A stretch of 64,000 nt of DNA from Lutibacter oricola (lineage in GTDB: Bacteria; Bacteroidota; Bacteroidia; Flavobacteriales; Flavobacteriaceae): assembly GCF_900106565.1 (NCBI RefSeq), contig NZ_FNNJ01000006.1, forward strand, positions 124,001 to 188,000, written 5' to 3'. Below are positions 34,788-47,388 of the stretch, piece by piece. The position numbers and the translations under genes are program-made. The notes beneath the pieces were generated by a model. It was given only the letters and a program-made list of their open reading frames with translations, made no database searches and had not been told where the DNA came from. Each line of letters begins with the position of its first letter. The stretch's first letter is position 1.

Positions 34788-35441
34788 CTAAATATTATCA
34801 ATAATAATTCGGTTTCTTCTAATTTGAATTTTCCCTTCGTTTTCTAATTGTTTTAACAATCTAGAAACTACAACTCTAGATGTGTTAATGTCATCAGCTA
34901 TTTCTTGATGCGTAATAATTAAGGTGTTACTTTGCATTATTTTAACCTTGTCAGTTAAGTATTTAAGTAGTCTGTCATCTAGTTTCATAAATGCCAAACT
35001 ATCAATAGATTCTACCATTTCTATTAAACGCATATGGTAACTATCAATAATAAAATGCCTCCAAGTTTCGTATTTAATAAGCCATTCATCTACCTTTTCA
35101 ACAGGTATAAATACACCTTCAGTATCTTTTTCGGTTAAACCTCTAAACATACTTTTGCTTCTATTAATACAGTTTATAAAAGAAATTGCACAAGTGTCTC
35201 CTCTTTCTAAAAAATAAAGAGCAATTTCATCGCCGTTTTTATCTTCTCTAATAATTTTAACAGCTCCACTTAAAATTAAGGGAATATGTGTCATGCTATC
35301 ACCAATATCTAGTAATAATTGACCACTTTTAATATTTCGAATAAAACTATTATTAACAATATCTTCAATTAGTTCCTCTTCAAATATTTGAGCGTAATAA
35401 TCGTTTAACTTCTCTCTAATTAAATCTTTTCCTGAATTCAT
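34788..35441 (-). CDS. Crp/Fnr-family transcriptional regulator of the sulfur island
   Basis: A ~217-residue regulator with a cyclic-nucleotide-binding-like beta barrel (LLDIGDSMTHIPLILSGAVKI, ALYFLERGDTCAISFINCINRS) and a C-terminal winged helix (ITHQEIADDINTSRVVVSRLLKQLENEGKIQIRRNRIII). The recognition helix reads SRVVVSR, lacking the Glu of the E-x-x-S-R pattern in Crp/Fnr. Two cysteines in GDTCAISFINC could sense redox or sulfur species (inference); there is no N-terminal FNR iron-sulfur motif. I choose ATG 35441 over a longer reading. Promoter TAAATTTG is at 35473-35480. It is the last gene of the island and probable regulator of its promoters. Confidence 0.82.
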   Translation of the reverse strand: MNSGKDLIREKLNDYYAQIFEEELIEDIVNNSFIRNIKSGQLLLDIGDSMTHIPLILSGAVKIIREDKNGDEIALYFLERGDTCAISFINCINRSKSMFRGLTEKDTEGVFIPVEKVDEWLIKYETWRHFIIDSYHMRLIEMVESIDSLAFMKLDDRLLKYLTDKVKIMQSNTLIITHQEIADDINTSRVVVSRLLKQLENEGKIQIRRNRIIIDNI

Positions 35442-35472
35442 ATATAAACTGTTACAACTTACTGTAGATAAC

Positions 35473-35480
35473 AAATTTAA
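35473..35480 (-). promoter_or_regulatory. -7 element of the Crp/Fnr gene
   Basis: TAAATTTG on the minus strand, predicted start 35468, ~27-nt leader. Its upstream region coincides with the porin terminator hairpin, so no ordinary -33 TTG is visible. Confidence 0.45.
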
Positions 35481-35488
35481 AAAAATAA

Positions 35489-35520
35489 AAAAACTCCTAA
35501 GTAACATTAGGAGTTTTTTA
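35489..35520 (-). terminator. Terminator downstream of the porin gene
   Basis: AAAAACTCCTA / TAGGAGTTTTT stem, 8-nt loop, T tract. It ends the double-rhodanese/porin transcript and lies just upstream of the regulator's promoter. Confidence 0.85.
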
Positions 35521-35542: not shown

Positions 35543-36595
35543 TTAAAATCTAACTTGTACTTGTGCTAATAAAGCATCGTGATCTGAATTGTTGTCAACT
35601 TCTTTAATTTGGTAGTTAACTTGTAATCTAACTTTTTTATGGAAGAAATAATTTACACCAACAGTAAACATTTCTTGATAACCAGAAATAGGTGATACTT
35701 TAAGATCTGTATCCGCATCAAAATATTCATACTTTAAAACAGGTTGTAATTTGTCGGATACCTTGTAGGCTGCCATTACATAGGCTCCTTGTCTTTTATC
35801 GCCTAAAATTACAGGTGTTGCTCCGCAGCCACCATCTGCACCTAAATTATAGGCGCCTTCATCATAAATATACTCACCTTGTACGCTTAATTTTTTATAA
35901 GAAATTAAGGCATCAAATCCGTAAGAAGTTCTATCATCATCTTCATTAGTTGGGTATCCATATCTAAAACTAGCTCCAACATTTAAAAAATTTAATAGCT
36001 GGTAAGTTGCTCTACCTATAACATCTTTCTTTTTGTTGGTATCTTTAGTTCCAAGTCCGGTACCGTTCATTAATGCTAATGAGTATCTAAATTTAGTTTT
36101 ACTGCTACCTCCTAATAACATTAATCCATAATCACGTTGAGGAGCTACTAATTGATCTGCTACAATGGAACGATCGATAGTGGTTAAAGAATGGCATGCT
36201 GTTGCAACGTCTCTACTAAAAGGTTGTTTAAAAGAACCCATAGATATTTTAGCCCATTCGTGTTTATCCCAAGTTATAAATGCATCTAATAAATAAGGAT
36301 TACCATCCGAAGAAACAAAATCACTAGCCTCTAAACTAGCATAATAAGAGAAAGATCTATTTATTCGTCCTCTTACTCCAAAACGAGCTCTTTTAAAGTG
36401 AAATGAACTTGTTGTTTCTGGTTGTAAAAATTCAGAAGAATATTGTCCTTGAATATAACCAAAAAATGTTATGCTGCTAGTTGTAGGAACTCCAGATTTG
36501 GTTCCAGTTGGGGCTATATCATCTTCACAACCTTGTGCAAAAGAGAAGTTTACTGCAAGTAATACTACTACGATTAATAAAATTTTTGTTTTCAT
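35543..36595 (-). CDS. Phosphate-selective porin O/P-like outer-membrane porin
   Basis: A 350-residue outer-membrane beta-barrel with a signal peptide (ending FAQGCEDD). Family features: ITFFGYIQGQYSSEF, FHFKRARFGVRGRIN, LEASDFVSSDGNPYLLDAFITW and alternating beta strands to a C-terminal VQVRF, where a final Phe is the barrel-insertion signal. It would allow anions such as thiosulfate or other sulfur oxyanions into the periplasm (inference from neighbours). It follows the lipoprotein rhodanese by 115 bp. A TTGAAA-N4-TTTCAA palindrome (36609-36624) sits just before the start. Confidence 0.8.
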   Translation of the reverse strand: MKTKILLIVVVLLAVNFSFAQGCEDDIAPTGTKSGVPTTSSITFFGYIQGQYSSEFLQPETTSSFHFKRARFGVRGRINRSFSYYASLEASDFVSSDGNPYLLDAFITWDKHEWAKISMGSFKQPFSRDVATACHSLTTIDRSIVADQLVAPQRDYGLMLLGGSSKTKFRYSLALMNGTGLGTKDTNKKKDVIGRATYQLLNFLNVGASFRYGYPTNEDDDRTSYGFDALISYKKLSVQGEYIYDEGAYNLGADGGCGATPVILGDKRQGAYVMAAYKVSDKLQPVLKYEYFDADTDLKVSPISGYQEMFTVGVNYFFHKKVRLQVNYQIKEVDNNSDHDALLAQVQVRF

Positions 36596-36709: not shown

Positions 36710-37708
36710 TTAGTCTGCATAAGGTAATCCGGCAACATATTTACTACCCCAATGGTTAGAAACTCCAGCCCAGAAAGAATTGTCATAATACAATCCATTC
36801 ATTCCAAAGGTTAAACTATATGCATCATAACCTAATACATTTAGGCAGGCAGTTATAACTGCTGAAGTTTGCCCAGTATAACAGTAGGTAACTATTTTTT
36901 TACTTGGATCTAAATGAATCGTGTTTTCTCCAAAAGTTATAGGATTAATTCTATAAGCACCTTTTATATGTCCAAATCCAGTGTAATGCGCGTCAGAAAA
37001 GAAGTTATTAATATAGTAACTTTCTGGGCTTGTTAAAACATCAGTATTTACAACAGTTTTAAATCCATCGGCAACAGCTTGCTCAACACGTTGTTTTAAT
37101 AAAGTGGAGCCGCTTGTAGAAGTTAATGCTATAAAAGGAGTTTCAGTAAAAGTAGGAGTTGTTGGTGCAGCACTTGTTGTCCAATTAGAATCTCCTTGAG
37201 CAGGATTCGATCCAATTTTTCCATTCCAAGGTGAAGCTGTTGCATCATTCCAACCACTCATTCCCCATTTTAAAGCTTGTGTATTTGTATAGCCATACAT
37301 ACGCATTAAAGCTGTAGCATAACAAGCAGTTTGTCCAGTATAGCAAATTACCAATGCTGGTTTTCCTGCAGTTTTCGCATTTGCACCTTCTGTTAATATA
37401 TCTCCAAATGCAATATTTTTAGCGCCTTCAATATGGTTTGCACCAAAAGCATCAGCTTTTCTAATATCAATAATATAATATTTATCTAAAAAAGTATTTA
37501 AATCAGCTAGAGCAGGAGCAGGAACAACAAACTTTGCTCCATCTTCATTTGTAATAATTTTATTAATATCCATTCCATTTGCAACAACGTAATCTCTTAG
37601 GATAGTAAACCTAGGTGTTTCTTCTACTTCTTCACCTTGATCACACGATGTTAAGAACAATGCAGGGACAAATAACAGTCCAATTAATAATAATGATAGT
37701 TTTTTCAT
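36710..37708 (-). CDS. Lipoprotein with two rhodanese domains, both catalytic
   Basis: A 332-residue lipoprotein (lipobox FLTSC, Cys22) with two rhodanese-like domains. Domain 1 holds the DIRKADAFGANHIEGAKNI strand and the active loop CYTGQT (C122); domain 2 has FGHIKGAYRI and CYTGQT (C276). Rhodaneses carry sulfane sulfur as a cysteine persulfide. Each domain ends with a GM-x-G/S-W/L type segment. It lies 42 bp after the other double rhodanese and upstream of the porin, and is likely displayed in the periplasm on a membrane face. The donor and acceptor are unknown. Confidence 0.85.
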   Translation of the reverse strand: MKKLSLLLIGLLFVPALFLTSCDQGEEVEETPRFTILRDYVVANGMDINKIITNEDGAKFVVPAPALADLNTFLDKYYIIDIRKADAFGANHIEGAKNIAFGDILTEGANAKTAGKPALVICYTGQTACYATALMRMYGYTNTQALKWGMSGWNDATASPWNGKIGSNPAQGDSNWTTSAAPTTPTFTETPFIALTSTSGSTLLKQRVEQAVADGFKTVVNTDVLTSPESYYINNFFSDAHYTGFGHIKGAYRINPITFGENTIHLDPSKKIVTYCYTGQTSAVITACLNVLGYDAYSLTFGMNGLYYDNSFWAGVSNHWGSKYVAGLPYAD

Positions 37709-37750: not shown

Positions 37751-38740
37751 TTACTCGACTACAGGAAAATTTTTAATTTCTTTTGTTGAAAATCCATTCC
37801 AGTGGTTTTCCAACATTATTTTATTCATGTAGCCATTAGAACCATACGCTAGGTTATAAATGTCGTAACCTAAAATATGTAAGTATGCAACAGCGTAAGC
37901 CGCATCTAGACCAGTATTACAGTTTATTAAAACCTTTGAATTAGTTGGTAACGTAGCTAAATTTGTTGTAGTTGCTAAAGATTTATTAGGCTCATATAGT
38001 ATGGCACCTTTTAAATGACCTGCATTGTATGTGTCTTTACTCATATAATTAATTATATGATAGTCTGAAGAGTTTTCAATAGCAATAGGAGCCTTAACAA
38101 CAAACTCTTTATAAGGTTTTAGAAATGCAGCTTTAACTCGTTCTTTTAAAATTTCTGTAGCAACTGTTTTTCCTGTGTTTATAGTAGGATATGTTGTTTT
38201 TTCTGGTATCGGATTTTCAGTTGTTTCTAAATTATCTAGCAAGTTTTCTTTAGTGTTTTTCACCCAGCTGTTTGCTGCGAAATCTTCGTGCCAAGAACTC
38301 ATTCCCCATTTTAAACTGTAAACATTATTGTAACCTAATAATCTTAATAAACTTGTGTAGTATGCAGCAGATTGACCAGAATAGCAAACAATGGTAATTT
38401 TAGTGTAATCTTCTGGTTTAATTTTAGATTCAAAATAATCTAAAATATCTACAGCTTTTATATTTACAGCTTTTTTAATATGTCCATACTCAAACCAGCT
38501 TTCACTTCGTATATCTAGAACTAAATTGGTTTTGTTTTTTAGCTCTTCTTTTAGTTGGGTAGCATCAATTAAAGCAGGTGATAATGTGCTATTAATAAAG
38601 TTTCCATTTTCTTCTAAATGTTTCACTAATAATTCAAATTCAGAAGGAGGATTTGTAGTTTCTGATTCATTGTTTTTAAAACTGCTAAATATTGTCAATA
38701 TGACAAAAAATAGCACAGAATAGACGCTTAATTTTCTCAT
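37751..38740 (-). CDS. Exported protein with two rhodanese domains
   Basis: A 329-residue periplasmic or membrane-tethered protein (hydrophobic residues 5-21, no lipobox). Domain 1: VLDIRSESWFEYGHIKKAVNI with active loop CYSGQS (C119); domain 2: AGHLKGAILYEP with loop CNTGLD (C274), less typical. It is a paralogue of the next gene (LKWGMSSWHEDFAANSW versus LKWGMSGWNDATASPW). First gene of a transcription unit whose promoter carries a CRP-like box and a separate 16-bp ACGAAAACGTTTTCGT palindrome. It is inferred to transfer sulfur in the periplasm. Confidence 0.83.
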   Translation of the reverse strand: MRKLSVYSVLFFVILTIFSSFKNNESETTNPPSEFELLVKHLEENGNFINSTLSPALIDATQLKEELKNKTNLVLDIRSESWFEYGHIKKAVNIKAVDILDYFESKIKPEDYTKITIVCYSGQSAAYYTSLLRLLGYNNVYSLKWGMSSWHEDFAANSWVKNTKENLLDNLETTENPIPEKTTYPTINTGKTVATEILKERVKAAFLKPYKEFVVKAPIAIENSSDYHIINYMSKDTYNAGHLKGAILYEPNKSLATTTNLATLPTNSKVLINCNTGLDAAYAVAYLHILGYDIYNLAYGSNGYMNKIMLENHWNGFSTKEIKNFPVVE

Positions 38741-39030: not shown

Positions 39031-39657
39031 CTAACAACCGCCTTCAACAGGCATTTTCTTTTTCTTCTTTTTAGGGATAACTACCTTTTTTACAGGAGCT
39101 TTTACAACTGGTTTTGGTTTAGGCTTTGCTTTCATTAATTCATTCACCTTTTTTGCTGAAGTCTCAATAAATTTATTGATGTTTTCTCCTTTCTTTTCAA
39201 TTTCAGCAGGAGTTGTAATCAATTTATCTTGATTAAGTGAATTATTAACAGCTAATATTTTTACATTGTTAAAACCTAATTGTTGTAAAACCATTAACGG
39301 AGCAATAGCTTCAGAAGGAGTATTGCCATAAAGTGCTACATTTTTACCTTCTTCTTTAAGTGTTTCAAATACATTTTTATTATCTTCTAATAAAATATCT
39401 GAAGCATCTATATTAATGGCATTTTCTATATGTCCTTTTTCAAATTCAAACTTATTTCTAATATCAATTAGAATAGTTTCAGAATTCAATTCACTTTTTT
39501 GAATAAAATTATTCAATGCTGTTTGTTCTAATGCTTGTTGCGTATTAACTGTATATAAATGTTTTGGCTTTTTATACGTTAACAAAGCTATGATTACAAC
39601 TAAAATAGTGATAACAGCTGCTATAGATATTCGTTTTGTTTTTTCTAATTCTTTCAT
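39031..39657 (-). CDS. Membrane-anchored rhodanese-like protein without loop Cys, ending in GGC tail
   Basis: A 208-residue protein: cytoplasmic basic start (MKELEKTKR), one membrane helix (~10-27), then a periplasmic rhodanese fold (LIDIRNKFEFEKGHIENAINI) whose active loop reads YGNTPSE, with no cysteine. The tail (residues ~176-208) is Lys/Pro/Val-rich and ends PKKKKKKMPVEGGC; C208 is the only cysteine. I take the ATG at 39657; the longer frame starts with a TTG. Last gene of the oxidoreductase operon. The terminal cysteine could act as a mobile sulfur-carrying arm (inference). Confidence 0.8.
   Translation of the reverse strand: MKELEKTKRISIAAVITILVVIIALLTYKKPKHLYTVNTQQALEQTALNNFIQKSELNSETILIDIRNKFEFEKGHIENAINIDASDILLEDNKNVFETLKEEGKNVALYGNTPSEAIAPLMVLQQLGFNNVKILAVNNSLNQDKLITTPAEIEKKGENINKFIETSAKKVNELMKAKPKPKPVVKAPVKKVVIPKKKKKKMPVEGGC
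39041..39075 (-). repeat. 35-bp direct repeat, copy 1 (3' end of rhodanese-like gene)
   Basis: Identical over 35 bp to 39685-39719 at the 3' end of the adjacent paralogue; it encodes the shared Lys-rich GGC tail. The rest of the two genes is strongly diverged. Confidence 0.9.
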
Positions 39658-39674
39658 CTGTTTAAACTTTTTAA

Positions 39675-40349
39675 TTAGCAACCACCTTCAACAGGCATTT
39701 TCTTTTTCTTCTTTTTAGGAACAACAACTTTTGGAGTTGTAGTAGTTTTTTTAGGTGCAACGTATGCCTTTTTTGAATCAGGTTTTTTAACTTGATCTAC
39801 GTACATAACACCAAAATACATACTTGCCGCTTTTCTGAAAGAATATAAATTGTATTCTGTTTGTGGCATATTTTCAGAAGGTTTTTTTGGATTAATTATA
39901 GTATTAAACCATTCATTTATTCCACCTTTTAAAACGTGGAGATTTTTATAGTCTAATCTGTTACATAAAATCCAAGCTTGATCTGCTTTAAAACTATCGT
40001 TTGAAAATAAAATTACATCATATTCAGCTTGATCTAAATAACCTTCAAAATCTTCATTAAGTAATTGATCTAAAGGAATATTTACTGAATTTGGTAATGT
40101 ATTTTCATTAAAACTAGCTTCATCTCTAACATCAATTAATAAAATTGAAGGATCGTTACTAATAATTCTATCAGCTAGCTCATCAGTAGAAATATAACGT
40201 TCAGGGCTTATGGCATTGCTAAGTAAAAGTTCTGGTGCAATACCTTCTTGTTTTTCAAATTTTGGTAATAAAACCAAACCTCCTGCAAGTACTATAATAA
40301 GTGCCGACAGAAATAAATAGCGAGGTGTAATTAATTTGTTTGTAGACAT
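39675..40349 (-). CDS. Membrane-anchored rhodanese-like protein without loop Cys, ending in GGC tail (paralogue)
   Basis: A 224-residue protein: N-terminal membrane helix (~11-29), rhodanese-like domain (LLIDVRDEASFNENTLPNSVNIPL) with loop SNDSFKA lacking the catalytic cysteine, then a long Lys/Thr/Pro/Val-rich tail ending PKKKKKKMPVEGGC. Its cysteines are C129 in a helix and the terminal C224. The topology puts the tail in the periplasm. It is 15 bp downstream of a YeeE-type channel gene and 17 bp upstream of its paralogue. The shared tail, on proteins with otherwise low similarity, implies a specific function such as docking or sulfur transfer to the channel (inference). Confidence 0.8.
   Translation of the reverse strand: MSTNKLITPRYLFLSALIIVLAGGLVLLPKFEKQEGIAPELLLSNAISPERYISTDELADRIISNDPSILLIDVRDEASFNENTLPNSVNIPLDQLLNEDFEGYLDQAEYDVILFSNDSFKADQAWILCNRLDYKNLHVLKGGINEWFNTIINPKKPSENMPQTEYNLYSFRKAASMYFGVMYVDQVKKPDSKKAYVAPKKTTTTPKVVVPKKKKKKMPVEGGC
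39685..39719 (-). repeat. 35-bp direct repeat, copy 2
   Basis: Matches 39041-39075 exactly, 644 bp away in the same orientation; encodes the same C-terminal tail. Confidence 0.9.
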
Positions 40350-40364
40350 AATAATTCGGTTTTA

Positions 40365-40955
40365 TTAATAAAATACTTTTTTAACACGCCTTCTAATAAT
40401 ATCGGTTACAAAGAAAGCGAGTACCGCAACAACAGTTAATCCAAAAATAAACCAGTACGGGTTTGCTCCAAAGTAATCAACTACTGTGATGTTTCCAAGA
40501 TATGATCCTTCGTATAAAGGTTGAAATATAGAATAAGCTTCAGCAAAAATGAAAACTCCAATCATAATTCCAACGATATAAACAATGGCATCAATTTTTC
40601 CTATGGCAACAGCTGTTAGGGCAGTTCCTGGACAAAATCCAGCTGAAATAAATCCAACACCCATAATAGCTCCACCTATAATACCACCCCATAAATATGT
40701 TGGTTGAACATAAAGTTCACCTAAATTTACATATCCAAGGTAGTCCATATAATACAATCCAATGGCAGCAGTTACAGCTGCAGTAAAAAAGACTTTAAGT
40801 ACGGCAAAGTCGTAACCGTAGAATACACCTGCAAGTTTTCTTGATGAAGAAAAACCTGACGATTCTAAAACAAATCCGAAAGCAATACCAATTAAAATGG
40901 CAATAATATTATTCCATTCATAAGGTATTATTTCGTTAGGAATTAATGGTCCCAT
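40365..40955 (-). CDS. YeeE/YedE-family membrane channel, subunit 2
   Basis: A 196-residue inner-membrane protein with five to six hydrophobic helices and the family cysteine motif GFCPGTALTAVAIGKID, the site that contacts thiosulfate in YeeE/TsuA-type transporters. At half the length of full YeeE (~350 aa), it pairs with the next gene upstream to make a split two-subunit channel, as in PmpA/PmpB-type proteins. It is likely to move thiosulfate or another sulfur species across the inner membrane. Mid-operon, 15-19 bp from its neighbours. Confidence 0.85.
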   Translation of the reverse strand: MGPLIPNEIIPYEWNNIIAILIGIAFGFVLESSGFSSSRKLAGVFYGYDFAVLKVFFTAAVTAAIGLYYMDYLGYVNLGELYVQPTYLWGGIIGGAIMGVGFISAGFCPGTALTAVAIGKIDAIVYIVGIMIGVFIFAEAYSIFQPLYEGSYLGNITVVDYFGANPYWFIFGLTVVAVLAFFVTDIIRRRVKKVFY

Positions 40956-40974: not shown

Positions 40975-41502
40975 TTAAATCCAGTTTTTTCTAAAGAAAT
41001 AAGCAGCCAAATAACCAGTTCCAAAAATGGCAATGGTAGAAATAAATCCACCTACAGATAGTACTGACATACCACTTAAAGCAGCTCCACTTGTACAACC
41101 TCTACCTAATTGAGCTCCTATTCCAAATAAAATACCTCCACCAAGTGCAAAGTATAATCTTCTTCTTTTTGTAATTTTTGGCGAATGTTGAACTTTCCAG
41201 CCAATTCTTCCAGATAGTCCACCAGAAATAAGTCCACCAATTAAAATTCCTAAAACTTCAAAAACTAACCAATTATTTAAAGGTGATTTATCTTCACTAA
41301 TAAACTTACTGTAATACGCATTGTTTTCAGCGTGTGTTGGTGCAACTACATCAACAGCCGCAACTACAGTGCTTTTCATTGCTCCACTAGCACCTAATCC
41401 TCTTCCTGTCATATAGAAAGTGAAAAGTACTATTAATCCTAAAAGGAAGCCACCAAAATATGGGTTCCAATATATATGTCTGTTTTGTTCAGTAACTTTC
41501 AT
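40975..41502 (-). CDS. YeeE/YedE-family membrane channel, subunit 1
   Basis: A 175-residue inner-membrane protein, other half of the split YeeE-type channel. The key motif GAQLGRGCTSGAALSGMSVLS carries the conserved cysteine. A periplasmic loop (residues ~45-75, YYSKFISEDKSPLNNW) separates the first two helices. Together the two halves give the two-cysteine pathway seen in full-length YeeE (by analogy). It starts 11 bp after the NrfD gene and is followed 19 bp later by subunit 2. Confidence 0.85.
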   Translation of the reverse strand: MKVTEQNRHIYWNPYFGGFLLGLIVLFTFYMTGRGLGASGAMKSTVVAAVDVVAPTHAENNAYYSKFISEDKSPLNNWLVFEVLGILIGGLISGGLSGRIGWKVQHSPKITKRRRLYFALGGGILFGIGAQLGRGCTSGAALSGMSVLSVGGFISTIAIFGTGYLAAYFFRKNWI

Positions 41503-41513
41503 ACTTAAATTTT

Positions 41514-42455
41514 TTAATAAAGGTAACGTGTAATTTGACCAGCTTCAACCATTACAAAACGGAAGATGAGTCCTCCTAATAAAATGAGTAAAGCAGGAAT
41601 AGCAACTGGAATTTTAAAACCTCTTAATTCTAAAAATTCTAAAATGGCAGGAACTATTAAACCTAGAATTACAACAAATCCAAAAAACATCATTGTAAAT
41701 TCTCCTCCAATTAATAATTGCATAGCTTCTAATTGTACTTCAGAACCAGCATACATTCCCATTAGCATATGTACAATTAAACCTAGTTCTAAAATTACCA
41801 AGCCTAAATCTATTTTGCTAAAGAAGTGACGTTCCTTAGCGGTATTTGCTAATAATATAATTGTTGCAGCACCAGTAGATAAACCAGAAGTTAAAAATAG
41901 AGGTCCTAAAATGGCATTATTCCATAATGGTCTTGCATTAAAAGCCGAAAGTAAAATACCTGTATAAACTCCTAAAACAATTGATAATGGTAATAAAGCA
42001 TATGCCATTAACATTCTATTTTTTTGAAGGAATTTTTCAAAAGTGTTTAAAAATTCAAACTTCATTTTAAATTTTGGAAACAATTCTGTGTAATAACTTA
42101 GTACCCATAAAAATGATAATGGAGTGATTATTAATAATACCCAAGCTCCCCAACTCATAGGAGATTCAATTCTTACAGTTGTGTATAATCTCCAAAAATA
42201 AATTTTATGAGTTAAATCGTAAAATAAAGCTATTAACCCTAAAGTTAGAGCCAATGGAGATACTATTGATGCAAATTTTACTGCTGCAGGATATTCTTTA
42301 TCCTTTTTTAAAACAGTAATTAATGCTGCAAAAAACAGTAAACCTGCTGCCAATCCTCCTAAAAATAAGTACACCGAAATTGGCCAGTGCCATACTTCTA
42401 ATGAGGGATCTATGTTCGGAATATTTCTTCCGCTTACAAATAATTCTTCTTGCAT
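41514..42455 (-). CDS. NrfD/PsrC-like quinone-linked membrane subunit
   Basis: A 313-residue protein with eight hydrophobic helices, of the NrfD/PsrC family that exchanges electrons between the quinone pool and a periplasmic FeS subunit. The opening EVWHWPISVYLFLGGLAAGLLF is typical. With the two genes upstream it makes a Psr/Phs-type ABC complex: catalytic Mo subunit, FeS subunit, membrane anchor. Direction (reduction or oxidation of sulfur compounds) is not decided by sequence. It lies 10 bp after the FeS gene. Confidence 0.9.
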   Translation of the reverse strand: MQEELFVSGRNIPNIDPSLEVWHWPISVYLFLGGLAAGLLFFAALITVLKKDKEYPAAVKFASIVSPLALTLGLIALFYDLTHKIYFWRLYTTVRIESPMSWGAWVLLIITPLSFLWVLSYYTELFPKFKMKFEFLNTFEKFLQKNRMLMAYALLPLSIVLGVYTGILLSAFNARPLWNNAILGPLFLTSGLSTGAATIILLANTAKERHFFSKIDLGLVILELGLIVHMLMGMYAGSEVQLEAMQLLIGGEFTMMFFGFVVILGLIVPAILEFLELRGFKIPVAIPALLILLGGLIFRFVMVEAGQITRYLY

Positions 42456-42465
42456 AATTCAAAGA

Positions 42466-42999
42466 TTAAATTAGATAATAAACTTTAGGTTTTGTTCCAG
42501 CTTCTGGAGCTAAAGTTTTCCATTTTCTGTTTTTCAACAATTTAGAAACTTCACTATTTGGGTTGTCTAAATCTCCAAAATACATACATTTTGTAGGGCA
42601 GACTGATACACAAGCAGGAAGTTGTCCTTTTTCTAATCTGTGGTGACAGAACGTACATTTATCAACATAACCTTCAGGATGTTGAAAACGTGCATCGTAC
42701 GGGCAAGATTCTATACAAGCTCCACAACCAATACATTCATCACCTGTAACTAATACAATTCCATTGTCTAATTGATGACTCGCGCCTGTTGGACAACAAC
42801 GTACACAAGGTGCATTTTCACAATGATTGCATCGTTCAGATTTTAGTTCTAATTCAATATTTGGATATGCACCGCTTACAGTTTCAGTAATCCAATCTCT
42901 ACAGTACCCAATTGGTACATTGTTCTCTGTTTGACAAGCAACTACGCAGTCGCTACATCCAACACACTTTAGTGTGTCTATAACCATTGCATATCTCAT
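42466..42999 (-). CDS. Four-cluster ferredoxin subunit (PsrB/NrfC-like)
   Basis: A 177-residue electron-transfer subunit with four cysteine groups for [4Fe-4S] clusters: CVGCSDCVVAC, CNHCENAPCVRCCPTGA, CIGCGACIESCPYDA and CTFCHHRLEKGQLPACVSVCP. It links the molybdenum subunit to the NrfD anchor. It has no signal peptide and is presumably exported with the Tat-dependent catalytic subunit. Its start overlaps the stop of the catalytic gene by 4 bp, so the two are translationally coupled. Confidence 0.92.
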   Translation of the reverse strand: MRYAMVIDTLKCVGCSDCVVACQTENNVPIGYCRDWITETVSGAYPNIELELKSERCNHCENAPCVRCCPTGASHQLDNGIVLVTGDECIGCGACIESCPYDARFQHPEGYVDKCTFCHHRLEKGQLPACVSVCPTKCMYFGDLDNPNSEVSKLLKNRKWKTLAPEAGTKPKVYYLI

Positions 43000-45239
43000 A
43001 TCTCTACAGTTTTATGTGGGTTTTCAGTTAAAATCTCAACAAAGTTTCCTCTCATACCTGTTCCACCCATAATTGGGTCAACCATAGTTTTAGAAATCAT
43101 TTGTGTGTCATTAATTCCTTTTCCAAAGGCACGAGTTAATTTTTTGTTGTCGTGACCAAATCCGTGAACCATATAAACAGAATCCCAACGAACTCTTTCT
43201 GTAACTCTAACTTTTATTCCGAAAGTTGATGTGATTTTATCTTGATTACGCAACCAAACTTCTTGCCCGGTTTTTAAACCAAGAATACGAGCAACTTTTG
43301 GGTTTACCCATAAATTGTTTTCACTTTTTAAATCATTTAAATTTGGGTTGTTTGCTGTACGGCTAAACGTATGCATAGGAGCACGTCCATAATTTAATCT
43401 GTAGAATCCTTGAGGTGCTTCAGGGTGTTTTGTGTATTTTGGTAAAGGATCGAAGCCTAAGTTTTTCAATTCTTTAGAATACAATTCAACTTTACCACTT
43501 TCAGTAGCAAATTCGTGATCTTTTCCTTCTTCAATATATAATGAGCCAGATTTTCTAGGGAAGTGTTTTACTCCAATTTTGTTCATTTCTTCTAACGAAG
43601 TTCCTAGCTGTTTTAATTGCCATTCAATTACTTCTTTATAATCATTATAATTGAAATATTCACCTAAACCTAAACGCTCACCAATTTGTTTGGCAACCCA
43701 CCAACCAGGTTTAGAATCGTATTTAGGTTTTACTGCAGGAACTCGAACCGCAATAGAAGGTTCTCTATTTGTTGCTGAACGAATACCATCGTAACGTTCT
43801 AAATAGGTACATTCAGGTAAAACAACATCGGCATAACCAGTAACATCCATTGGCATTGTATCCAAAACTACCATAAACTCTAATTCGTCCATAGCTTTTT
43901 CAAGCAATGCTTTTTCAGGAATAGATTTGGTAATATTTGTTCCAGCAACCATCATTGCTTTTACAGGATATTTATTGTCTTTACTAGGAATTGCAGCTCT
44001 AATTATTTCAGTTGTAATTCCCATTTGCGCCATAGGGTATTTTTCTCCAATATCTCTCCAATCCCATTTTGGGTGTGGATATTTAGGTGAAGGATATTTA
44101 GGTACTTTAATACTTTCTTTAAAATAGAAGCCACCTCTACGTCCCCAAGAACCTAATAAACCATTTAAAATAGCCATAGCTCTTGCACGTTGTGTATCAT
44201 CTCCATACCAAGAAACGTGACGACCAGGATGTACAATTACAGCTGGCGCTGCGTGTGCCATTTCACGTGCCGTTTCTCTAATTACTTCTGGTTTAATTGT
44301 AGTAATTCCATACGCCCATTCTGGAGTAAAGTTTAAAACGTGATCTTTTAACTCTTTAAATCCAGTAGTGTATTTTTCTACATATTCTTTATCGTAAATG
44401 CCTTCTTCAATAATTACATTCATCCAAGCCAACATTAATGCAATATCTGTAGCAGGTTTAATCGGTAACCAATGTTTAGATTTACTTGCTGCTGTTGAAA
44501 AACGAGGATCAACTGTAATAATAGTTGCTCCGTTATCAATAGCATCAGACATTTCCTGAACTTGTGAATTGTGCATGTTTTCACCAATATGTGAACCGAT
44601 AAGTACTAAACATTTAGTATCTCTAATATCAGTTGGTTCTGGTGATCCTACCCAAGATCCGTAAGTTAAAGCAAAACCAGCTTCACGTGCTCCTCTACAT
44701 TGTGCATAAGCAGGCTCTGCAATAGTGTCTGATCCATATGCTTTAAACAAATGTTCCAAGTGTTTACCTGGAGAACCGTGTTTTAATAATGCCAAAGATT
44801 CAGCACCGTATTTTTCTTTAATGTTTTTGAATTTTGAAGCAATTAAGTCTAAAGCTTCGTCCCAACTAGCCTCTTTGAAAGTTTCTTCGCCGTTAACGTT
44901 TGTTCTAATTAACGGAGTTTTCAAACGGTCTTCATCGGAATACATACCAACACCACCAGTTCCACGAGGACATAGTCTTCCGTAACAATGTGGGTCAGTT
45001 TCATTTCCTATTATTTTTTGGATATTTCCATCTTCATCACTATAAGTCCAAGCAGCACATTTCCAAAAGCACACTTCGCAATAGGTTGGAGTTCTTTTCA
45101 GTTTTTTAGTTACATTCTGTTTTACTAGTTCATTTAAATAAGAACTTGAACCGAACATGCTAAAAGCCGATGTTGCAGTTGCAACACCTCCTAAACCCAA
45201 GGCAGAAATTTTAATAAACTTTCTTCTTGAAGTTGTCAT
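42996..45239 (-). CDS. Molybdopterin oxidoreductase catalytic subunit (polysulfide/thiosulfate-reductase-like)
   Basis: A 747-residue Tat-exported enzyme (signal SRRKFIKISALGLGGVA). Proximal [4Fe-4S] site: C54, C57 and C61 in CEVCFWKC and C90 in LCPRG. A probable Mo-ligand cysteine is C181 in AYAQCRGAREAG, as in PsrA/PhsA rather than the Ser or Asp types. MGD-binding blocks: LVLIGSHIGEN, VDPRFSTAASKSKHWLPIKPATD and VLPECTYLERYDG. Closest in kind to polysulfide, thiosulfate or tetrathionate-handling enzymes; which one is undecided. First gene of the operon, with a CRP-like box promoter at 45263-45307. Confidence 0.88.
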   Translation of the reverse strand: MTTSRRKFIKISALGLGGVATATSAFSMFGSSSYLNELVKQNVTKKLKRTPTYCEVCFWKCAAWTYSDEDGNIQKIIGNETDPHCYGRLCPRGTGGVGMYSDEDRLKTPLIRTNVNGEETFKEASWDEALDLIASKFKNIKEKYGAESLALLKHGSPGKHLEHLFKAYGSDTIAEPAYAQCRGAREAGFALTYGSWVGSPEPTDIRDTKCLVLIGSHIGENMHNSQVQEMSDAIDNGATIITVDPRFSTAASKSKHWLPIKPATDIALMLAWMNVIIEEGIYDKEYVEKYTTGFKELKDHVLNFTPEWAYGITTIKPEVIRETAREMAHAAPAVIVHPGRHVSWYGDDTQRARAMAILNGLLGSWGRRGGFYFKESIKVPKYPSPKYPHPKWDWRDIGEKYPMAQMGITTEIIRAAIPSKDNKYPVKAMMVAGTNITKSIPEKALLEKAMDELEFMVVLDTMPMDVTGYADVVLPECTYLERYDGIRSATNREPSIAVRVPAVKPKYDSKPGWWVAKQIGERLGLGEYFNYNDYKEVIEWQLKQLGTSLEEMNKIGVKHFPRKSGSLYIEEGKDHEFATESGKVELYSKELKNLGFDPLPKYTKHPEAPQGFYRLNYGRAPMHTFSRTANNPNLNDLKSENNLWVNPKVARILGLKTGQEVWLRNQDKITSTFGIKVRVTERVRWDSVYMVHGFGHDNKKLTRAFGKGINDTQMISKTMVDPIMGGTGMRGNFVEILTENPHKTVEI

Positions 45240-45489: not shown

Positions 45490-47388
45490 ATGAAGAAAAA
45501 GTACTTTCTAATATTAATGCTCTTAGTTTTTGCAGCTAGCTTAATTGGGGTTAAAATTTATAATGAATCATCTCAAGATTATTATAAGTTGAATTCTGAA
45601 GAAAAGGTAAGTGTAGTAACAGGAAAAAAAGAATCTTGTTTAGAGTGTCACCAAAATACAAAAGGTTATTCTAGTTATCATAATCCAGATTTAATTGGTT
45701 GTGCAAGTTGTCATTTAGGAAATACTTCAGCATTAGAAAAAGAAAAATCTCATAAAGGAATGGTTTTAATTCCCGGAAATTTAAGCGATGCTAAAGAGAC
45801 TTGTGGAAAATGTCATCCAAACGAATTGCGCAAAATTGAAAATTCGTTAATGGCTACCAATAGTGGTTTGGTGGCAGTTGATAAATATATTTTTGGTGAG
45901 GCAGATTCTCCAAATTATCAATATCATATTCAGCAAATAAAAAATTCGCCTTCCAATAAGCATTTACGAGATTTATGCGCTAATTGTCATTTAGGAGCCG
46001 AGAAAAAAGAGTTTGGTGCAATTACACAGTTAAGTAGAGGTGGAGGTTGTAATGCGTGCCATTTAAATTATTCCGAAGAAGCAAAAAAGGATTTAGATTC
46101 ATATATAGCTTCAAATAAAAAAGAATTACCTAAAGCACATCCTTCAACAGATATTTTTGTGCAAAATGAACATTGTTTTGGTTGTCATAGTCGTTCAAGT
46201 AGAATTTCAACAAATTATGAAGGTTGGCAAGAAACCTTGTTAGATGAAGAAGAATTGACTTCAAAAGAAGGGTTTAGAGTTTTAGATGATAAGCGTGTTT
46301 ATAAATATATTGAAGAAGATGTGCACCATACTAAAGGCTTGTTGTGTATAGATTGCCATAGTACGCACGAAGTAATGGGTGATGGTAAAAAATACATACA
46401 CGAAGAAGATGCGGTTTCTTTACAATGTAGCGATTGTCATTTTAAAGAAAAACCAAGAACAATGCCTTACGATTCTTTAGATAGAGAAAGTTTGTTGGTT
46501 TTTTTACATAGAGATTATAAACACAATGATAAAGAGATAATTGCAGTTGAAAAGGATGGACATCCACTGGTGAATACTTATGTAGATTCTGTTGGAAATG
46601 CTTTTTTAATTGGTAAAAAAGATAAAAAGTTGCATCTATTAAAATCACAAAGTGATGTTTGTTCGAGAGATAATGTGCATAAAAATGTAAGTTGCTCAAC
46701 TTGCCATTCATCCTGGACATCGCGTTGTATTGGTTGCCATAATGAGTATGATGAAAACGAACCTAGAGCATTTGATTTGTTAGATAGAAAGTATGGTAAA
46801 GGGCAATGGAAAGAGTTTATTGCTGAATTTTCGTCATCTAAACCCGCTATGGGAGTTAGAGAAAATAAGAAAGGAAAACATATTGAACCTGCTGTACCTG
46901 GAATGATTTTAACTATTGATAAAGGTAGTTATTCAGGAAAAAAAATAGGAGAAGATGTTTCGTTTCATAGGTTGTACGCTCCAAATTCACCGCATACTAC
47001 AACTTCAAAAGTTAGAGATTGTAAAAGTTGTCATTCGAATTCGGCAACTTTAGGGTATGGAAATGGAGAATTAAATTATATAGTTGAAAATGGAGTAGGT
47101 AAGTGGCAATTTGTTGCCGAGTATGCAATAAATAAAAATGATAATTTACCTGAAGATGCTTGGATTCCTTTTTTAGGTGAAACTCCAAAAGGAGTTGTAA
47201 ATTCAACAAGAACAGATTTTAGACCTTTTTCAATAAAAGAGCAGCAGCAACTGTTAACTGTTGGAGCTTGTTTGCAATGTCATAAAGAAGATTCTAAAGT
47301 AATGCAGCAAAGTTTAATTAATGGTTTAAAGCCTCTTTTACAAAAGTTAGATAAGCAATGTGTTTTGCCTGTGTGGGAGTTAGAATAG
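45490..47388 (+). CDS. Dodecahaem c-type cytochrome, periplasmic or membrane-anchored
   Basis: A 632-residue protein with an N-terminal hydrophobic signal or anchor (residues 4-22) and twelve CxxCH haem-binding motifs: CLECH, CASCH, CGKCH, CANCH, CNACH, CFGCH, CIDCH, CSDCH, CSTCH, CIGCH, CKSCH and CLQCH. Many free histidines (for example EDVHHTKG, SHKG) can serve as distal ligands. It is divergent from the Psr-like operon across a shared regulatory region, so it is the likely electron partner or terminal conduit of that complex. There is no sequence sign of a specific catalytic activity, though some multihaem proteins are reductases. Its end overlaps the convergent DoxX-like gene by 9 bp. Confidence 0.88.
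   Translation: MKKKYFLILMLLVFAASLIGVKIYNESSQDYYKLNSEEKVSVVTGKKESCLECHQNTKGYSSYHNPDLIGCASCHLGNTSALEKEKSHKGMVLIPGNLSDAKETCGKCHPNELRKIENSLMATNSGLVAVDKYIFGEADSPNYQYHIQQIKNSPSNKHLRDLCANCHLGAEKKEFGAITQLSRGGGCNACHLNYSEEAKKDLDSYIASNKKELPKAHPSTDIFVQNEHCFGCHSRSSRISTNYEGWQETLLDEEELTSKEGFRVLDDKRVYKYIEEDVHHTKGLLCIDCHSTHEVMGDGKKYIHEEDAVSLQCSDCHFKEKPRTMPYDSLDRESLLVFLHRDYKHNDKEIIAVEKDGHPLVNTYVDSVGNAFLIGKKDKKLHLLKSQSDVCSRDNVHKNVSCSTCHSSWTSRCIGCHNEYDENEPRAFDLLDRKYGKGQWKEFIAEFSSSKPAMGVRENKKGKHIEPAVPGMILTIDKGSYSGKKIGEDVSFHRLYAPNSPHTTTSKVRDCKSCHSNSATLGYGNGELNYIVENGVGKWQFVAEYAINKNDNLPEDAWIPFLGETPKGVVNSTRTDFRPFSIKEQQQLLTVGACLQCHKEDSKVMQQSLINGLKPLLQKLDKQCVLPVWELE

Follow-up and report, generated by a model that had tools for sequence, protein, structure and literature searches.

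Why should two neighbouring membrane proteins, each carrying a rhodanese-like domain whose loop has no cysteine, end in one and the same basic tail closed by a cysteine, and what might such a tail do beside a transporter and a respiratory sulfur enzyme? The question is raised by the genes RhoB and RhoA of Lutibacter oricola, which lie within a stretch of 64,000 nucleotides, referred to below as the window.

A preliminary description of the locus had claimed that the two proteins share an identical tail, that both have a rhodanese fold with the loop Cys lost and one membrane anchor each, and that they are diverged outside the tail. Our analysis bears it out on all of these points. The frames and the tails were confirmed (RhoB ends in VVVPKKKKKKMPVEGGC and RhoA in VVIPKKKKKKMPVEGGC), the last 14 residues being identical in the two proteins of the window. 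A Pfam scan of both (E <= 0.1) returned PF00581 only, above its cut-off in each case (E=1.3e-14 for RhoB, E=2.5e-13 for RhoA), and no SoxY (PF13501), DsrC or TusA-type domain. The loop positions read FSNDSFKAD and YGNTPSEA, with no Cys in either, and each protein has one hydrophobic segment. The divergence of the pair was measured in 28 genomes with both genes readable (27 from the genus, the other from the same family), in which the rhodanese domains of RhoA and RhoB are on average 30.8% identical. Orthologues of RhoB in the genus carry a tail of the same kind, and within its own genome the motif MPVEGGC was found only in the RhoA and RhoB tails (reversed pattern, 0). The listed TTG start of RhoA at 39681 would overlap RhoB, and alignment revealed that the ATG at 39657 (MKELEK...) is kept in relatives; the latter is most likely the true start.

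The surroundings of the pair are summarized in Table 1. On the minus strand the genes follow in the order molybdopterin subunit, iron-sulfur subunit, NrfD subunit, two YeeE halves, RhoB and RhoA, so that the PsrABC/PhsABC subunit set is complete in the window; downstream of RhoA, past an apparent gap, lie two tandem rhodaneses whose loop Cys is normal, followed by genes for a porin and for a Crp-type regulator. The structure matched by the molybdopterin subunit, 2vpw, bears the name thiosulfate reductase in the PDB, and we take it to be the Thermus polysulfide reductase. Against the NCBIfam PhsA model the same subunit reached 475 bits, below the cut-off of 694, and the label PsrA/PhsA-type does not therefore fix its substrate. 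For Lutibacter profundi, genes for SQR and polysulfide reductase have been reported, as has the absence of stimulation by thiosulfate, in the passages cited (PMC5219744).

The porin and the Crp-type regulator are kept in most of the related loci compared and, with the lipoprotein rhodaneses, recall outer-membrane conduits. The ExtM-like multihaem cytochrome (ExtM being known from selenite/tellurite operons) is divergent from the Psr operon, which it adjoins in many relatives.

Table 1. Features of the rhodanese, transporter and respiratory gene cluster in the window.
Feature	Position	Strand	Description or basis
Crp-type regulator	34788-35507	(-)	end of cluster
Porin	35543-36595	(-)	end of cluster
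tRho2	36710..37708	(-)	lipoprotein-like tandem rhodanese, loop Cys (CYTGQ); Pfam; lipobox-like LTSC read from sequence
tRho1	37751..38740	(-)	tandem rhodanese, normal loop Cys (CYSGQ); two PF00581 stretches
RhoA	39031..39657	(-)	second rhodanese-like protein with a tail; start at the ATG that relatives share; 208 aa
RhoA tail PKKKKKKMPVEGGC	39034..39075	(-)	sequence; co-changes with RhoB tail
RhoB	39675..40349	(-)	membrane anchor at the N-terminus, then a rhodanese-like domain lacking the loop Cys, a basic arm and a terminal Cys; 224 aa
RhoB tail PKKKKKKMPVEGGC	39678..39719	(-)	sequence; model pLDDT <50 over residues 190 to 224
YeeE2	40365..40955	(-)	N-terminal half of YeeE/YedE transporter (PmpB-like), CPGT Cys; PF04143 positions 8-150 of 310
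YeeE1	40975..41502	(-)	C-terminal half of YeeE/YedE transporter (PmpA-like), GRGCTSG Cys; PF04143 positions 173-309 of 310
NrfD/PsrC-type membrane quinone subunit	41514..42455	(-)	PF03916 3.2e-49
PsrB-type iron-sulfur subunit	42466..42999	(-)	PF13247 3.4e-24
PsrA/PhsA-type molybdopterin catalytic subunit	42996..45239	(-)	2vpw "thiosulfate reductase" 622 bits; twin-arginine-like N-terminus (SRRKFIK)
Divergent multihaem cytochrome c, ExtM-like	45490..47388	(+)	NF040943 243 bits, cut-off 800

The tail proved not to be confined to the genus. A RhoB search of 60 relatives gave matches in 44 genomes, some of them only to other rhodaneses. In a sample of 395 genomes of the phylum, a RhoB profile that included the tail detected 56 places in 53 genomes (E <= 1e-15), and all 55 places besides the window have a Cys at the terminus or within one residue of it. 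These loci came from a profile containing the tail, and the search was repeated, as a check, with a tail-less profile. This returned 64 places at E <= 4.7e-26, namely the 56 known and eight new ones, with weaker matches starting at 1.2e-18. Seven of the eight new places end in Cys; the eighth (L139) has a broken frame, a KKKKREGC end being readable in another one. At least three family members lie below this gap in E-values: L146, which also ends in Cys, L149 and L159.

Fusions of YeeE2 to a tailed rhodanese extend the family further. A scan of GTDB contigs with such a fusion gave at least 468 relatives, of which the best 80 were analysed, the named fusions having been found by patterns in the YeeE part. 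Judged by record titles, which can be wrong for assembled genomes, these best 80 of at least 468 belong mainly to Ignavibacteria and other Bacteroidota, with further representatives in Acidobacteriota, KSB1, LCP-89, Planctomycetales, Elusimicrobiales and Caldithrix. A Cys stands within the last three residues of 77 of the 80; in L240 it is four from the end, the contig breaks off within L215, and in L250, a full-length relative, the terminal Cys is absent. The frame-broken relatives L139 (G351) and L258 (G105) show the family tail in another or a short frame.

The pooled family comprises 148 entries, of which 12 repeat a sequence, leaving 136 distinct members. These were compared with control rhodaneses of the same phylum, hand-picked as 31 regions from the weaker matches of the tail-less profile (mostly rows without inner stops) and reduced to 29 when L149 and L159, being YeeE2-rhodanese fusions with a near-terminal Cys, were moved to the family. 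The comparison revealed an exchange of one cysteine position for the other. A Cys occurs in the last four residues of 133/136 members and is the very last residue in 117/136, as against 0/29 controls in both cases, whereas the catalytic loop column holds a Cys in 2/136 members (L103 and L106; a gap in two more) and in 27/29 controls. In L125 the Cys lies one position before the loop column. An alignment of 42 diverse members, with a mean column identity of 30%, varies in every column except those of the rhodanese D, the rhodanese R and the terminal Cys. The residues up to this Cys read GGC in 106 of the 136 members and EGC in 18, and a few members end in GGCG. The last 30 residues are rich in Lys/Arg (23.7% vs 12.3% in controls) and in Pro (7.2% vs 2.2%). 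By alignment, RhoA and RhoB are thus members of a larger family in which the loop Cys has been lost and a terminal Cys gained. On the same count of terminal cysteines we reject chance as the cause of the identical tails.

Is the tail, then, a property of this family or a more common ending? The pattern KKxEGC matched 44 times in the 395 genomes, vs 26 for the reversed-pattern control. With a real stop following and no inner stop, 32 places were left: 16 family genes, one broken-frame family tail, 13 after open frames of <=34 aa, and two at the ends of longer frames (341 and 104 aa) outside the recognised family. As far as tested in this form, the restriction of the tail to a sulfur-linked family, on which the preliminary description had staked its reading, holds, and the idea that the tail is common to unrelated proteins was rejected.

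The two tails of a genome also change together. The four residues before EGGC are identical in both tails of 24 of the 28 pairs, a value equalled by 0 of 10000 permutations. On a tree of the tail-less bodies this block changes 14 times in each gene, with 14 joint changes, which is the expectation if every change hits both genes; for a ten-residue block the figures are 20, 19 and, jointly, 24. Some recent changes use the same codons in both genes (L021, L027), and codon identity at matching residues is slightly higher within genomes (115/177) than across genomes (2263/3811), so local gene conversion may take part. That the identical tails are nothing but a by-product of such conversion between neighbouring genes is extremely unlikely: it would explain the likeness of the pair, but not the terminal Cys kept in single-copy relatives and in fusions of other families, and many synonymous differences separate the tails. 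As the whole account, gene conversion was rejected.

G037 and G052 belong to a different family of the order; in both genomes the counterpart pair of RhoA and RhoB and the adjoining tandem rhodanese all end in ...AVSGGCG. The last twelve residues are the same in all three rhodaneses of G052 (KRKKKAVSGGCG), one of which has active-type rhodanese loops, and differ at one residue among the three of G037. Judged from sequence, one member of the pair and the tandem rhodanese begin like lipoproteins, and this puts their tails outside the cytoplasm. The tRho1 homologues of loci L033 and L034 end in SGGCG.

Three neighbouring rhodaneses, one with active-type loops, have a common ...AVSGGCG end at L033:6026-8555 and L034:9509-12149. 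In two further loci the tRho1 homologue (L047:11409-12431 and L052:8788-9810) ends in APGCD, so that a rhodanese of the same cluster has a near-terminal Cys there as well.

A short common end on otherwise diverged proteins, present on three proteins of one operon in L033 and L034, is typical of recognition tags, and one might see in it a processing or attachment signal for an enzyme that modifies the C-terminal Cys (by a lipid, a thioester or sorting). We regard this as very unlikely, given that the lipoprotein forms of these two loci and the membrane-anchored forms are already attached to the membrane, that the tail is confined to sulfur loci as far as tested, and that the operons showed no candidate gene for such processing.

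What nearly all these loci have in common is a transporter. The claim of the preliminary description that the tailed rhodaneses adjoin YeeE channels applies to the window, with its two YeeE halves, and to nearly the whole family: halves, separate or fused, were found in 54 of the 55 loci and in 63 of the 64 phylum-sample loci (the 55 and nine from the tail-less search). In L084 both tailed proteins and PsrABC are present and YeeE genes are absent. YeeE2 aligns to the N-half and YeeE1 to the C-half of the Spirochaeta YeeE, so that, as in a split of the PmpA/PmpB type, the two cover the N and C halves of Sulf_transp with one essential Cys each. The CPGT Cys of YeeE2 and the RGC.SG-type Cys of YeeE1, which match the two Cys called essential in the Spirochaeta protein, were each present in 134/134 loci, six loci falling outside this count. 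The region of the third, cytoplasmic Cys of Spirochaeta YeeE (C22) aligns to GFS without Cys, and no Cys was found in this region among the commonest 25 variants of the YeeE halves. In the passages cited, the relay of YeeE runs C293, C91, C22 and then C17 of YeeD as the fourth (PMC11073785), and PmpA and PmpB are YeeE halves that keep C91 and C293 (PMC11582611). A YeeE protein whose motif reads GUxSG appears in the cited table of a selenoprotein review (PMC13188914); this would be expected of a redox-active YeeE1 Cys.

The second frequent partner is a respiratory sulfur enzyme, which may be of either of two unrelated types. Among the 64 phylum-sample loci, 25 have a PsrABC-type enzyme, 33 an octaheme cytochrome with cytochrome b, and six neither; one of the latter six lies on a contig of 3.4 kb. 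Of the best 80 of at least 468 fusion loci, 79 contain octaheme, cytochrome b and YeeE1 genes in the fetched stretch. One fusion locus was typed in full: its octaheme protein scored 579 bits with the model of the tetrathionate reductase family (curated cut-off 375), and its fusion protein has the Sulf_transp and Rhodanese domains. Viewed from the enzyme, the linkage is one-sided. The 395 genomes contain 60 octaheme places, and a tailed fusion lies within a few kilobases on the same contig in 35 of them; of the other 25, 14 belong to one family with 2 Mb genomes and 11 to a shorter form. In eight of the 25 that were inspected, YeeE halves and rhodanese were absent from all, and cytochrome b was present at four and absent at four. 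The octaheme enzyme can therefore work without the arm. For Ignavibacteria Ch128a (our L188), the cited passages mention the octaheme enzyme and a cytochrome b561, with no mention there of a tail or fusion (PMC7509429).

Five loci (L107, L115, L118, L124, L144) consist of YeeE1, YeeE2 and a tailed rhodanese ending in RMGC or FQC, without Psr or octaheme genes; in L107 and L115 a further rhodanese gene lies directly upstream.

These associations bear on two other explanations. The terminal Cys might be a redox tether or sensor, forming a disulfide with YeeE1, PsrA or the octaheme cytochrome that assembles or gates the complex without carrying sulfur. A flexible arm with one Cys, facing a YeeE1 with just one Cys in 123/134 loci, would suit such a bond, and the tails of the pair co-vary as if they bound one partner. 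We nevertheless think this explanation unlikely, for it leaves unexplained both the SoxY-like GGC or GGCG end and the choice, as scaffold, of a rhodanese without its own reactive Cys. Alternatively, the arm might capture or deliver a metalloid or metal (selenium, tellurium, mercury) in place of sulfur. Models of the YedE selenium transporter give weak scores with both YeeE halves, and the divergent cytochrome resembles ExtM of the selenite/tellurite operon model (243 bits, cut-off 800), but none of these YedE and ExtM scores comes near its curated cut-off, the catalytic enzymes linked to the arm belong to the polysulfide/thiosulfate and tetrathionate types, and a lone Cys with a Lys arm would be an unusual metal site. 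The metalloid alternative is, in our judgement, quite improbable.

The preliminary description had suggested a periplasmic setting for both proteins. The proposed location stood for RhoB and for the fusions, and is uncertain for RhoA. The charges flanking the hydrophobic segment of RhoB (mean +4.3 before and -0.2 after, 33 proteins) lend good support to a predicted N-in, C-out orientation. In 72 of the best 80 of at least 468 fusions, a hydrophobic segment lies between the basic YeeE2 end and the rhodanese, which suggests a periplasmic rhodanese. For RhoA the corresponding charges are +1.9 before and +3.1 after (29 proteins); its predicted topology is ambiguous, and these charges do not favour a periplasmic domain. 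AlphaFold models of RhoB and of one fusion, of modest mean confidence (pLDDT 60.7 and 59.2), have rhodanese domains as their best Foldseek matches; the tails of both, probably disordered, stay at pLDDT <50, and the rhodanese part of the fusion is mostly >80.

Which known systems come closest? In DsrC/TusE, named as the model by the preliminary description, a reactive Cys lies near the C-terminal end of a flexible arm, but these proteins are cytoplasmic and of another fold, and the Pfam scan detected no DsrC domain in RhoA and RhoB. They are not the nearest model: closer parallels are SoxY for the GGC/GGCG end and YeeD for the pairing with YeeE. Compared with the rhodanese superfamily, the fold is kept, and the active-site loop Cys of the active sulfurtransferases is absent. 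Sud, a periplasmic sulfur transferase of Wolinella that serves polysulfide reductase, is a rhodanese-fold protein proposed to feed the PsrABC enzyme; it uses the rhodanese loop Cys, which RhoA and RhoB have lost.

SoxY carries sulfur on a Cys at the tip of a swinging arm, and the tailed family shares with it a C-terminal motif of the GGC type, whose full form in SoxY is GGCGG. According to the passages cited, GGC is the functional motif by which SoxY sequences are recognised, and a SoxY-SoxZ pair lies beside the octaheme tetrathionate reductase gene in lucinid symbionts (PMC11237559), an arrangement that would suit a requirement for a carrier of some kind in certain settings. A transfer that starts at the SoxY Cys and runs along the SoxT cysteines has been called conceivable, direct transfer being doubted in the cited passage because of the distances (PMC11582611). 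Unlike SoxY, the tailed proteins are built on a rhodanese scaffold (PF00581 only) with no SoxY domain, are membrane-anchored or fused to a transporter half, and are linked to Psr or octaheme enzymes. PF13501 was found in 0/40 relatives, and the control genomes likewise gave no match. In the YeeE-YeeD (TsuA-TsuB) system, as described in the cited part of that work, a thiol carrier partners or can fuse with YeeE and extends its Cys relay (PMC11073785), but YeeD is a cytoplasmic TusA-type protein at the exit, whereas the tailed partner has a rhodanese fold and is probably periplasmic; moreover, the transporter here is split into halves of the PmpA/PmpB kind, as these are described in the passages cited (PMC11582611). 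The respiratory enzymes of our loci belong to the PsrABC/PhsABC and octaheme tetrathionate reductase (TIGR04315) kinds, the standard sets of which are without a tailed rhodanese, octaheme genes also occurring without it. The accessible parts of the literature searched describe no tailed rhodanese of this kind. A thiol on a swinging arm is thus already known from SoxY; as far as these searches show, the novelty lies in the rhodanese scaffold, in the shift of the Cys and in the fusion to a split YeeE. The proposed arm would work like SoxY or YeeD and is a member of neither.

The combination of Cys swap, channel and sulfur-respiring enzyme suggests a new kind of sulfur-carrying arm. The carrier-arm idea of the preliminary description finds support, at the level of sequence, in the move of the Cys from loop to terminus across a family extending beyond the genus, and in the linkage to YeeE and a respiratory sulfur enzyme. 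We consider it probable, with some reserve, that RhoA and RhoB are membrane-tethered and most likely periplasmic sulfur-carrier arms acting between the cysteine relay of YeeE and the respiratory enzyme. Weighing against this reading are the octaheme places without a tailed fusion, the absence of YeeE from L084, the missing terminal Cys of L250, the ambiguous topology of RhoA, the modest confidence of the structure models and the reported lack of a thiosulfate effect in Lutibacter profundi. We infer that the terminal thiol would take up sulfane sulfur (as a persulfide) or a thiosulfonate, either from active tandem rhodaneses, which would load the arm in the window, or from thiosulfate or polysulfide. 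The arm would swing this sulfur to the catalytic subunit for reduction (PsrA here, a haem site of the octaheme cytochrome in relatives), and PsrABC would reduce it on the arm with quinol electrons. The arm may also give sulfur to, or receive it from, the Cys in the GRGCTSG motif of YeeE1, the first of the YeeE relay on the periplasmic side, as a periplasmic counterpart of the cytoplasmic "fourth cysteine" of YeeD. The overall flow may also run in the reverse direction. The rhodanese body would serve as a docking platform, and the Lys-rich stretch might guide the arm towards acidic surfaces or towards anionic species of sulfur. In this scheme RhoA would presumably share the periplasmic location.

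A wider proposal can be put forward tentatively, as one that might well fail. The tailed rhodaneses may constitute a separate class of sulfur carriers, in which a rhodanese fold gave up its loop Cys for a thiol at the tip of a basic arm and became tethered or fused to a split YeeE, the moving Cys connecting a respiratory sulfur enzyme in the periplasm with a cysteine relay across the membrane. This class would serve two unrelated enzymes, the PsrABC type and the octaheme tetrathionate reductase; its members occur in Bacteroidota and, to judge from record titles, in several further lineages. If this is true, a SoxY-like carrier arm was reached on another scaffold by the move of a catalytic Cys from the loop to the chain end, and the YeeE cysteine relay would have a periplasmic entry point. 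The PsrABC and octaheme tetrathionate reductase loci would also gain a carrier component, which would help to account for the delivery of insoluble or toxic sulfur during anaerobic respiration.
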